Virus record (IMG/VR): IMGVR_UViG_3300027128_000001
Coordinates: 18,038 to 82,037 of that record
Direction: 5' to 3' (one strand)
DNA length: 64,000 nt
From: a virus
In this document: one piece after another, positions 16,228 to 58,484 of the stretch
Numbering within the stretch: position 1 is the first letter of the stretch
Layout of the letters: each line of letters opens with the position of its first letter
Notes under the pieces: generated by a model
What the model was told of the DNA's origin: nothing
The model's database searches: none
Seen by the model: only the letters and a program-made list of their open reading frames with translations
Made by a program: the position numbers and the translations under genes

Positions 16228-19014
16228 TCAAAACTCCACTTGCAATTTCTCAACATCAATCCGCTCAGCAAACACAGTATAGTAGCAATGGATCAATGAT
16301 GGCATAAGTTCTGTGTTAGCAAGAAACACCTTATTGTCTTCAACTGCCTTGACGTATATAGTTTGATGAGATCCAATTGACGTTATGTTTACAGTGATTG
16401 AGGTAGGATCGACTAGCTTTGTCCAGTAGTCTGGTAGCTCAATAACATTTGTTCCTTTCAGCTTACCTCTAACATACACTCCATTTTCTGGACCCTCAAG
16501 AGACCCATAACGAAGTTTCATTCCAGGATTAGATGGATGATCAATTACGAACGACTTAGTGGTTGCAGCAAATGATCCGTTAACTTCTAGTTTATATCCG
16601 GGAGTAGTTGTTCCAATACCAACATTGCCGTTTCCTCTAATCACCATTAAGGTATTAGAGTTGTATCCGCTGCTATACAGGCTTCCAAATACCATACTAA
16701 CCGTGCTACCGTCATATTCTGTGGCTATTCTACCCGTGATGTTAGTTGCATCGCTCCATCTAATTCCGCCGCGATCGCTTCTAGAGGTATCATATGTTAC
16801 GTGCAGTCTTAATAATTCTGTGCTACTGGAGCTGCTTCCTAGTTGTAACAATGCATTGGGTGACCCTGTACCAATTCCCAGTCTACCAGACGAGTCAATG
16901 GCCATCTGAGTAGTACCATTCTTAACAAATAAAGTACCACCTGTATGATCAGCATCGATACTTCCAATATATAAAGTATTTACTGCGTTCATACCGAATA
17001 ATCTAGTTGTCGTCCCGGCAGCTAGTTTGCCTTTTAGATAGGTTGCATTGTCTTGTTGTATATCACCACTAACATGCAATTTACTTGCTGGTGAACTCGT
17101 CCCAATCCCGACGTTGCCGGAGGAGTCGAGGCGCATATACTCATTACCACCAATCGACCAAGTTTGAGCGTTCGTAGTCCCGGTGGAGTAGGTCATTTGG
17201 TAGTTAGTAATACCCGCCGTTTGAGTAATCCGCAGGCGGTTGTTGTTGCCTGTCGATGTCTCAAGCAGTTGAATGCCTACGCCGGATGCGCCGTGGATAT
17301 CCAATTTATAAGCAGGCGAACTTATCCCAATGCCGAGATTTCCAGCAGAAGTGAGACGTATGCGCTCTGAGGCGTTACTGAACGTCAACGAACCGTCAAC
17401 ACGGTTGTTATCGATCGTCCATACGCCCCCCTGAGAGTCCAGCTTTAACCGCGCAACTGCCGAGGAGTCGGTTGAAAAGTTAGTTATCTGCGCTGCTACT
17501 ACCCCCGCAACCGTTCCAGACACATCCAACTTTGACGCCGGTGCCCCCGTCCCAATGCCTACATCACCAGTGGAATTAATACGCATGCGCTCGATACCGG
17601 CGGTGCCAAATATGAGGCCGTAGTATCCAAACATTCCGGTACCGGACCCGGCCATCCCAGTGTAGGTTCCCCACCCAATTCCATAACTAGGGACGGTTAC
17701 GCCAGCAATCGTGCCCGTATCTGTCTGTGCCAAATATCCAATGCGCCCCGTTGATGGGACATTAATGTTTCCATTGACCTGTAGGACATTGGTGCTATTA
17801 TCCCATGTGAGGTTTGCAGATCCTGCTGTAGTTCCACTATTGTTGTATAATACCTGTGTGTTGGACCCACCTATTGGGCCCGCAGATCCAGTGTAACCTT
17901 GGCTACCGGTATATCCTATAGCAGCAAATGCTCCAACTGATCCAGTGTATCCCTGCGATCCAGTATATCCTTGGCTACCTGTATAACCTTGTGATCCAGT
18001 ATAGCCTTGGGACCCAGTGTACCCCTGTGAGCCGGTATATCCAATAGATCCGGTATACCCTTGGCTACCTGTATAACCTTGGGATCCAGTATATCCAATA
18101 GGTCCTTGTACTGTCGATGCTGAACCAGTATATCCTTGACTGCCAGTATATCCTCGAGAACCAGTATAACCTTGGGATCCAGTATACCCTTGGCTACCAG
18201 TATAGCCTTGGGATCCAGTATATCCAATAGGTCCTTGTACTGTCGAGGCAGATCCAGTATAGCCCTGGCTACCTGTATATCCAATAGATCCAGTATACCC
18301 TATTGGACCTTGGATAGTCGATGCGGATCCTGTATACCCCTGGGACCCAGTATAACCTTGAGATCCCGTATACCCCCAGGACCCAGTATATCCCTGGCTT
18401 CCAGTATACCCTTGGCTACCAGTATAGCCTTGGGATCCAGTATATCCAATAGGTCCTTGTACTGTCGAGGCAGATCCAGTATAGCCCTGGCTACCTGTAT
18501 ATCCAATAGATCCGGTATATCCTTGACTGCCAGTATATCCTCGAGAACCAGTATAACCTTGGGATCCAGTATATCCTTGGGAGCCAGTATAACCTACTCC
18601 CGCGTACGCCCCACTAGATCCTGTATATCCAATCGATCCTGTATATCCAATTGACCCAGTATATCCTTGGCTACCTGTATATCCTTGACTACCGGTGTAT
18701 CCTCGGCTACCTGTATATCCATCAACACCAATGTACCCAGCAGACCCTGTATATCCAATAGCAGTGGAAGCGGATCCTGTATATCCCCGAGGTCCACCGG
18801 GCAAAATTGATTCCCATACGGTACCATTCCATATGTTGAGTAACGGTACAGTTGTATTATACCACAACGCTCCTAATTGAGGATCCTGTGGTGCTGTTGC
18901 AGATATTGTAACAGAACCACCATGCTCAGCTATCCATTGAAAGTTGATGTCTAGGTCGGATAGCTGAACTGTATCTTGCTTAGTAGCAAAGGTTACAGGA
19001 AGATTTATTGCCAT
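16228..19014 (-). CDS. Long collagen-like tail fibre
   Basis: 928 residues from the ATG at 19014 (GAGG about ten bases upstream); a longer start at 19035 is less likely. Residues 1-75 (VQLSDLDINFQWIAEHGG, DPQLGALWYNTTVPLLNIWN) form an attachment domain. Residues about 75-385 are GYTGSQ collagen-like repeats. Residues 400-800 contain fibre repeats of the type GNVGIGTSSPASKL(D/H)VSG, seen five or more times. The last 100 residues (SFVIDHPSNPGMKLRYGSLE, GPENGVYVRGKL) match the C-terminal domain of other phage fibres. It overlaps the 175-residue gene by ten bases. Confidence 0.85.
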   Translation of the reverse strand: MAINLPVTFATKQDTVQLSDLDINFQWIAEHGGSVTISATAPQDPQLGALWYNTTVPLLNIWNGTVWESILPGGPRGYTGSASTAIGYTGSAGYIGVDGYTGSRGYTGSQGYTGSQGYTGSIGYTGSIGYTGSSGAYAGVGYTGSQGYTGSQGYTGSRGYTGSQGYTGSIGYTGSQGYTGSASTVQGPIGYTGSQGYTGSQGYTGSQGYTGSWGYTGSQGYTGSQGYTGSASTIQGPIGYTGSIGYTGSQGYTGSASTVQGPIGYTGSQGYTGSQGYTGSQGYTGSRGYTGSQGYTGSASTVQGPIGYTGSQGYTGSQGYTGSIGYTGSQGYTGSQGYTGSQGYTGSQGYTGSQGYTGSVGAFAAIGYTGSQGYTGSAGPIGGSNTQVLYNNSGTTAGSANLTWDNSTNVLQVNGNINVPSTGRIGYLAQTDTGTIAGVTVPSYGIGWGTYTGMAGSGTGMFGYYGLIFGTAGIERMRINSTGDVGIGTGAPASKLDVSGTVAGVVAAQITNFSTDSSAVARLKLDSQGGVWTIDNNRVDGSLTFSNASERIRLTSAGNLGIGISSPAYKLDIHGASGVGIQLLETSTGNNNRLRITQTAGITNYQMTYSTGTTNAQTWSIGGNEYMRLDSSGNVGIGTSSPASKLHVSGDIQQDNATYLKGKLAAGTTTRLFGMNAVNTLYIGSIDADHTGGTLFVKNGTTQMAIDSSGRLGIGTGSPNALLQLGSSSSSTELLRLHVTYDTSRSDRGGIRWSDATNITGRIATEYDGSTVSMVFGSLYSSGYNSNTLMVIRGNGNVGIGTTTPGYKLEVNGSFAATTKSFVIDHPSNPGMKLRYGSLEGPENGVYVRGKLKGTNVIELPDYWTKLVDPTSITVNITSIGSHQTIYVKAVEDNKVFLANTELMPSLIHCYYTVFAERIDVEKLQVEF
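17880..18800 (-). repeat. GYTGS collagen-like coding repeat tract (second fibre)
   Basis: About 920 bases of units encoding GYTGSQ/GYTGSI/GYTGSR, interrupted by GYTGSASTVQGPI blocks. Two blocks near 18115-18290 and 18420-18560 are nearly identical for more than 100 bases. Shared with the tract at 11530-12125, so gene conversion between the two fibres is possible. Confidence 0.9.
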
Positions 19015-41875: not shown

Positions 41876-42451
41876 TTACGTCAGTTTTGCGCGTAATCTT
41901 GAGTGTGATGGTAGAGCAGACTTCAGAAACTCCATCTGATCAGCAAGGATCTTCCTGTTGCACATAATCAACCCCTCTTCACGACATGGAATGTATGGAA
42001 GATAGAGAAGAGACATTCCACACTCTTCAAGAAGGCGATCATCCTTCTTGTTGTTGCAGCGTCTACATGAGGTAACACAATTCATCCAGGTATGACCACC
42101 TCCACGTGACTTTGGAGTGATGTGGTCATTAGTAAGATCACGGTACTCACACTCTTCACCACAGTAAGCACAAATGTTCAGATCTCGGCCGAACAATGTA
42201 CGGTTGGTCAGCATCAGGGGCTTTCGTTTTGGATGGTGGGTCCCTCTAACAGCTATGATCGATGAGAATGAAACTCGAGATCTGTTTCCAGATAGTTTGT
42301 TCTCACCGCCGTGCTTGGTCCACGACCAGTCCCCTGTTTCCCATGCTACAACGTCTTTGACTTTATATGTTACAGCATCCTGCCAGGTCGACCAGTGTGT
42401 CGGCGTTCCGTGTTCGTTTAGTGTAAGTATCAATGGGGTCATTTGAATCAC
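41876..42451 (-). CDS. HNH endonuclease
   Basis: 191 residues; start ATG or GTG within 42442-42451. CAYCGEEC, LTNDHITPKSRGGGHTWMNC and CRRCNNKKDDR form a complete HNH motif with two CxxC zinc pairs. The N-terminal half (TPTHWSTWQDAVTYKVKDVV) is the conserved part of a phage/bacterial HNH family found as free-standing genes. It could be a homing endonuclease, but no intron or interrupted gene is seen beside it; it directly follows the tmRNA gene. Confidence 0.85.
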   Translation of the reverse strand: MIQMTPLILTLNEHGTPTHWSTWQDAVTYKVKDVVAWETGDWSWTKHGGENKLSGNRSRVSFSSIIAVRGTHHPKRKPLMLTNRTLFGRDLNICAYCGEECEYRDLTNDHITPKSRGGGHTWMNCVTSCRRCNNKKDDRLLEECGMSLLYLPYIPCREEGLIMCNRKILADQMEFLKSALPSHSRLRAKLT

Positions 42452-42465
42452 TAACTCATGTTTGT

Positions 42466-42790
42466 GGGGGTATTGGATAACAAGGAACCCCCGAAACCCC
42501 GCTTAGCCGATCAAGCAGCTAAGGCAAATACCTCATCGTTGGCATTTGTGGTTATTGCTTCTACGACCGGGTAATCCCAATCCTAACGACTTTCGCATTG
42601 CCGAACTGTCCACTCTGTTACTCATTGCCCTGTCGAACCTATTTCGCCCCCATCAAAAGTAATCTAGTTTGGATTCGAACCTTGTCCATGTATTGTCTAC
42701 CTGCACGTCCCACCGTACTGGCCAGATTACTTTTGGTGGAGGCGGCGAGGCACTGCCCCCCGCGTCCAGAACACTTTTCTCTTTGCTTCA
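42466..42790 (-). ncRNA. ssrA: Circularly permuted two-piece tmRNA (ssrA)
   Basis: On the minus strand the order is acceptor piece first: ...CGCCTCC-A-CCA (42744 to 42734), then an 82-base intervening loop, then GGGGGCG (42651-42645) starting the coding piece. CGCCUCC pairs perfectly (one G-U) with GGGGGCG as the seven-base acceptor stem, although the 3' end precedes the 5' end in the gene. The coding piece carries GGTTCGAC near its start and a tag ORF whose end reads ANDEVFALAA-stop (stop 42511-42513), possibly starting five codons earlier at GCA (AITTN...). An 11-base inverted repeat (AAAAGTAATCT) in the intervening loop extends the acceptor stem. A GGGGGT/ACCCCC stem closes the 3' end (42466-42492). 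Exact ends are estimates. tmRNA rescues stalled ribosomes and tags proteins for degradation. Confidence 0.88.
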
Positions 42791-42801
42791 TACAGTCATT
42801 C

Positions 42802-58384: not shown

Positions 58385-58405
58385 CTCTCCTCCTACAAAT
58401 TGGTT

Positions 58406-58482
58406 TGGTGGGCCCACTTGGGTTCGAACCAAGGACCAATGGATTATGAGTCCACTGCTCTAACCGTCTGAGCTATAGGCCC
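58406..58482 (-). tRNA. tRNA with CAT anticodon (Ile2 or Met), CCA encoded
   Basis: GGGCCTA/TGGGCCC acceptor, A73, CCA; anticodon arm GTGGA-CTCATAA-TCCAT; T-arm CTTGG-TTCGAAC-CCAAG. G1-C72 excludes initiator Met. The body resembles tRNA-Ile2 (lysidine CAT, reads AUA), but Met cannot be excluded by eye. Confidence 0.9.
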
Positions 58483-58484
58483 GA

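Follow-up and report, generated by a model that had tools for sequence, protein, structure and literature searches.

The window analysed here is a stretch of 64,000 nucleotides (positions 18,038 to 82,037) from IMG/VR record IMGVR_UViG_3300027128_000001, a viral contig of 82,037 bp. On its minus strand, at 42797-42463, Rfam covariance models place a circularly permuted tmRNA gene of the alphaproteobacterial type. The initial annotation had proposed a phage-encoded, permuted two-piece tmRNA at this site and had named a search with the permuted Rfam models as its check, an empty result counting against it. That search, run here, returns two full-length matches above the gathering cut-offs: RF04321 (tmRNA_permuted) at 42797-42511, with 114.2 bits and E=1.6e-21 (gathering 47; model 1-213/213), and RF01849 (alpha_tmRNA) at 42855-42463, with 71.9 bits and E=1.3e-17 (gathering 50; model 1-355/355). 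ARAGORN, as run here, makes no call on a permuted tmRNA at 42797-42463. In the gene, the 3' acceptor half is followed by the intervening sequence (IVS) and then by the 5' half, which is the permuted order of the alpha type. The features are as follows, the outer ends of both mature pieces being approximate:

42463-42797, minus strand: permuted tmRNA gene, both pieces and the IVS (RF04321, RF01849)
42734-42797, minus strand: acceptor piece, the 3' half of the tRNA-like domain, with an encoded CCA at its end (Rfam match, sequence)
42792-42797, minus strand: 5' strand GACUGU of the inter-piece helix, with its partner ACAGUU at 42609-42604 (pairing across 42 sequences)
42745-42763, minus strand: T-arm of 19 nt, a 6-bp stem GCGGGG/CCUCGC with the 7-nt loop GGCAGUG (folding, comparison)
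42734-42744, minus strand: acceptor 3' strand CGCCUCC (42744-42738), discriminator A (42737) and CCA (42736-42734)
42652-42733, minus strand: IVS of 82 nt, non-coding in the window
42722-42733, minus strand: 5' arm of the 12-bp IVS closing helix, AAAGUAAUCUGG
42656-42667, minus strand: 3' arm of the 12-bp IVS closing helix, CUAGAUUACUUU
42652-42655, minus strand: conserved UGAU leader, pairing with ACCA save for one C x A mismatch
42463-42651, minus strand: coding piece with the acceptor 5' strand, D-loop region, tag frame and 3' structures (Rfam match)
42645-42651, minus strand: acceptor 5' strand GGGGGCG, containing G3 of G3-U70
42511-42543, minus strand: tag frame ANDEVFALAA, from the resume codon GCC to UGA (GCC...GCT TGA)
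42466-42492, minus strand: 3'-terminal hairpin GGGGGU/ACCCCC (folding; inside the alpha_tmRNA match, towards its 3' end)

All of the anatomy that had been read from the letters stands. The acceptor 3' strand (CGCCUCC-A-CCA) does lie ahead of the 5' strand (GGGGGCG), exactly as described, on the minus strand. The two strands form the seven-base stem with a single G-U that had been noted; this is the G3-U70 alanine pair, and the CCA is present. The loop of 82 bases between the strands corresponds to the IVS at 42733-42652, and the tag ANDEVFALAA was correctly read at 42543-42511; it is followed by UGA and ends in the usual -ALAA proteolysis signal. As judged from its sequence, the window carries a genuine, functional-looking tmRNA of the two-piece type, the transcript of which would be cut into two pieces. 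The prerequisites for alanine charging, SmpB binding and tagging are there in the sequence.

One part of the anatomy is rare. The T-arm counts 19 nt instead of the normal 17 nt and its stem 6 bp instead of the standard 5 bp, so that the acceptor/T helix measures 13 bp instead of 12. Such a T-arm is found in three of the 207 viral permuted tmRNAs that were parsed (the others being L233 and L260) and in none of the 100 cellular ones. The same sequence is present in a second contig (L075/L127), and an assembly error is therefore unlikely. Folding of the precursor reproduces the 6-bp T-stem alongside a 22-bp helix. A T-stem of 5 bp is usual in the family, not defining, and 6 bp is a variation that gives no ground for exclusion. 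Bacterial tRNA-Sec also has a 13-bp acceptor/T helix. A helix of this length might weaken the use of EF-Tu.

The baseplate and tail genes of the record are T4-like, and its gp6 homologue is nearest to those of the Pelagibacter phages HTVC008M and Mosig and of the Methylophilales phage Melnitz (36-38% identity). The tmRNA gene lies 1.2 kb downstream of a phrog_624 DNA-binding gene, with a 156-aa frame on one side and an HNH endonuclease gene on the other. The latter (41876-42451), a possible homing endonuclease, starts about 12 nt past the tmRNA 3' end. ARAGORN finds ten tRNA genes in the window. One of these, a tRNA-Met at 58405-58483, is 87-91% identical to the tRNA-Met of Acinetobacter T4-like phages, the remainder of the searched stretch being dissimilar. 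Nucleotide searches of isolated phages with the gene and the surrounding DNA matched only a tRNA and one short stretch. No SmpB gene was found in the record, which is an 82-kb fragment, so that the absence is not absolute. As to a promoter for the tmRNA gene, there are consensus matches only, and these were set aside.

The gene is widespread among relatives of this phage. Among the 14 relatives first tested with Rfam, 13 have a permuted tmRNA above the cut-off, including Melnitz, Mosig and HTVC008M; Caulobacter phage Cr30 has none. Of 80 contigs carrying the neighbouring DNA-binding gene, 55 have it. Where at least 5 kb of sequence is available downstream of that gene, it is present in 44 of 48 loci (42 located by script, and L131 and L155 matched by Infernal), and in the remaining four it was not found in the available sequence. 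Its distance downstream of the DNA-binding gene is mostly 1.1-4.2 kb, with one case at 9.1 kb. In this T4-like lineage, the permuted tmRNA gene is nearly fixed and keeps its neighbourhood. Viral tmRNAs of the permuted alpha type are common, since two pattern scans of viral contigs gave at least 119 and at least 120 loci. The viral sample was picked by two exact 20-mers and by one neighbouring gene, and the frequencies given here apply to sequences picked in this way only.

Pairing within the tmRNA is conserved as well. In a set of 42 distinct sequences that includes the window, pairing of the acceptor stem reaches 100%, against 81% (maximum 87%) with shuffled partners. The full pairing is partly due to selection, as the parser admitted only fully paired acceptor stems, but neither the kinds of base pair nor the constancy of G3-U70 comes from that selection. 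Three acceptor-stem positions change their pair type in a compensatory manner. G3-U70 is kept not only throughout this set but in all 207 viral permuted tmRNAs recovered by regular-expression parsing, a procedure that favours conserved acceptor stems. The inter-piece helix, for which the parser did not select, is 78.8% paired, compared with 60.2% (maximum 66.5%) for shuffled partners. Most relatives also keep the -ALAA ending of the tag. The tmRNA of the window is thus not degenerate.

The 11-base inverted repeat that had been seen to extend the stem (42734-42724 / 42665-42655) is real and conserved, and folding lengthens it. In the folded precursor, the acceptor stem runs on into a helix of about 22 bp with one C x A mismatch, and the CCA end is hidden. 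A closing helix of at least 7 bp is found in 86% of 143 non-redundant viral IVS (of at least 29 nt), compared with 15% when ends are swapped between loci, and TGAT stands at the IVS end in 118 of the 143. In the set of 42 sequences, the closing helix is 90% paired, as against 68% with shuffled partners. Cellular alphaproteobacterial IVS are mostly short (median 38 nt, from a sample favouring long ones); of 90 loci, three of them misparsed, 19 have a closing helix and four have TGAT. A Rhizomicrobium MAG contains, on an 8.5-kb contig, an additional permuted tmRNA whose IVS resembles those of phages (L358 / G081:C67; closing helix and TTGAT); it probably stems from phage DNA within the MAG or from a prophage.

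Several possible contents of the window IVS were considered. At 42671-42681 it has GGTTCGAATCC, identical to the core of a tRNA T-arm, possibly by chance. A nested tRNA, which this motif had suggested, is recognized neither by ARAGORN nor by Rfam. In a comparison with the phage tRNA-Met, the IVS scores above all 300 shuffles, and its similarity to the tRNAs of this phage is weak. Reading frames span only 5-24 codons and none was flagged as led by a Shine-Dalgarno sequence; the window IVS is thus non-coding. Used alone as a search query, it gives chance-level matches only, and miRNA-like Rfam matches are sub-threshold and merely reflect the long hairpin.

In relatives, the IVS frequently contains a small gene. 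A reading frame that is led by a Shine-Dalgarno sequence and takes up no less than 70% of the IVS occurs in 31 of 57 non-redundant viral IVS of at least 105 nt, compared with 0.5 in composition-matched shuffles and 2 on reverse strands. For three families of nested frames (17, 4 and 5 sequences), the in-frame pN/pS is 0.34, 0.18 and 0.27, respectively; the other two frames give 1.4-1.8 for the first and third families, while for the second family this control gives no information. In a fourth family the signal is weaker (0.68). These values indicate that the main families are under purifying selection. In most of the loci noted for a nested gene (L003, L022, L040, L053, L211 from Melnitz, L240, L242, L259, L267, L281, L302, L386, L400 and L525-L527), the Shine-Dalgarno sequence lies just past the CCA or the closing helix. 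In a 38-aa family (MKNPLV...WSICADI...IIYLVFF), the stop codon is the TGA of the TGAT leader, and in the frame MDEVILWEFRK...RHARLIIMGAK it falls within the tmRNA 5' end (GGGGGCGAAATAG). The 142-nt IVS of Melnitz holds a nested frame beginning MFKWLSKTRLVVITRDYF, which is unannotated in the Melnitz record. Some IVS in the lineage of the window (L219, L368, L370) code for very small hydrophobic peptides. Some nested-frame contigs are viral by IMG/VR classification and have few recognizable phage genes, while there is no such doubt about Melnitz and the T4-like contigs. Among the few cellular IVS that reach 105 nt, inspection by eye shows no comparable frame, and a literature search found no description of protein genes nested in phage tmRNA IVS. 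There is little doubt, in our opinion, that the nested frames in relatives are real genes.

A family of 78 aa is found at 26 viral loci: 16 copies lie between the tmRNA halves, 3 directly before the tmRNA 5' half, and 7 have no detected tmRNA. This distribution suggests that an IVS can acquire a gene which is also present elsewhere. Homologues without a detected tmRNA around them include L510-L512 and L521-L524; in the latter group, the next frame has MIQITESAQQYLTDVL or a similar sequence and is possibly an A-type iron-sulphur carrier. Another family is nested in L525-L527, with tags ANDE(K/R)FALAA as in the window lineage, and has a copy without detected tmRNA in L528. Tentatively, and with rather more doubt than belief, it could be imagined that the phage IVS is a cargo slot. 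A single precursor would give rise to the two-piece tmRNA, and in many of the relatives the excised part would serve as a mini-mRNA encoding a small protein that often spans the membrane; the 82-nt hairpin of the window would be the empty state. With the Shine-Dalgarno sequence of the mini-mRNA within or next to the closing helix, tmRNA maturation and translation of the small protein could be coupled; such a coupling is conjecture.

Phage two-piece tmRNAs are already known, and the surprise is smaller than the initial annotation implied. That of Melnitz was described by Buchholz et al. 2022 (PMC9004378), and among 133 unique phage tmRNA structures 53 are two-piece, 50 of which belong to aquatic phages (PMC9004378). 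Like the window, Melnitz, Mosig and HTVC008M are T4-like; their alpha-type permuted tmRNA likewise follows downstream of this DNA-binding gene, and PhoH is close by. Melnitz differs in its tag, ANDNYVPVDYALAA instead of ANDEVFALAA, and in having an IVS of 142 nt with a reading frame, whereas that of the window has 82 nt and is non-coding. Alphaproteobacterial tmRNAs (RF01849 / RF04321) share with the window the half order, the tRNA-like domain, G3-U70 and the tag region; unlike the window, with its 6-bp T-stem, they mostly have a short IVS, usually without a closing helix. Unusual IVS contents on record are one tRNA-Ala gene and one repetitive element (PMC11915505). Mycobacteriophages and Bacillus phage G also carry ssrA, as does the window, in a non-permuted form (PMC4131195); according to the literature, these tmRNAs are one-piece. 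The idea that the tmRNA type points to the host group is not supported: it does not show the host, because Melnitz has an alpha-type tmRNA and infects an OM43 methylotroph (PMC9004378). An exact GGGGGCGAAATAGGTTCGACA core occurs in Holosporales and in rumen/gut Alphaproteobacteria, but IVS and tags differ there, and it was rejected as an indication of the host.

Since the anatomy is complete and conserved and the tag ends in -ALAA, this T4-like phage very probably encodes its own working permuted alpha-type tmRNA, most likely maintaining ribosome rescue in infection. Anatomy, conservation, covariation and synteny are observed here, and no SmpB gene was found in the record; the course of processing, charging, tagging and benefit given below is what we infer. 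The gene would be transcribed as a single precursor, in which the acceptor stem and the IVS ends fold into the helix of about 22 bp. Excision of the 82-nt IVS by host RNases would produce two RNAs, the acceptor piece and the coding piece; permuted transcripts are cut by tRNA-processing enzymes according to the tmRNA database paper (PMC11915505). A helix so long and near-perfect is a natural target for RNase III, which may act first, followed by RNase P and 3' trimming in what we infer to be the order. The two pieces would stay joined via the acceptor stem and the inter-piece helix. The host alanyl-tRNA synthetase would charge the RNA with alanine through G3-U70, and host SmpB would deliver it to stalled ribosomes with the use of host EF-Tu. 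These ribosomes would add (A)ANDEVFALAA, and host proteases would degrade the tagged product. The most likely use is sustained ribosome rescue amid degraded mRNA, the tmRNA being one more translation gene beside the ten tRNAs. There is no need to suppose that host tagging is replaced by a phage tag, as the tag keeps the usual -ALAA, like that of most relatives.

Other roles can be considered. The RNA might bind host SmpB or alanyl-tRNA synthetase and so block host trans-translation, in the manner proposed for the tag-less, tRNA-like decoy RNA of mycobacteriophage DS6A (PMC4131195). A TLD-only phage tmRNA is indeed reported to inhibit host tmRNA (PMC4131195, PMC11915505), and the odd T-stem could impair function. 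However, a full tag frame with its ALAA end and compensatory acceptor changes are conserved across the lineage; because the tag frame is conserved, a decoy role is less likely, and we regard it as improbable. It is still harder to see the gene as a functionless passenger, gained from a host by an integrating phage. Such an origin would be in keeping with the frequent use of tmRNA genes as integration sites (PMC11915505) and with the exchange with a temperate phage that Buchholz et al. suggested for the ssrA of Melnitz (PMC9004378). Yet the gene is complete, syntenic in 44 of 48 relatives, with G3-U70 in 207 of 207 viral copies and covariation in the acceptor stem, and a mere passenger is very improbable.

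Least probable of all, with hardly any chance in our estimation, is that the IVS hairpin is the selected element instead of the tmRNA, for example as an RNA-level regulator or as a tRNA relic holding GGTTCGAATCC. The conserved closing helix and the score against tRNA-Met above all shuffles would fit this, but most relatives have unrelated IVS interiors between conserved halves of the tmRNA, and no tRNA in the IVS is recognized by ARAGORN or by Rfam.

With a working phage tmRNA as the preferred reading, the phage two-piece tmRNA, so far described in isolated cases, becomes a nearly fixed gene with conserved synteny in a T4-like lineage, and these phages would evidently benefit from having their own ribosome-rescue RNA. 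Caution is called for in naming a host from the tmRNA type. The spacer is not junk: a base-paired closing helix is kept and, in many viral copies, it holds a protein gene that annotation has missed. How and why two-piece tmRNAs are processed is now directly testable in a cultured phage, Melnitz.
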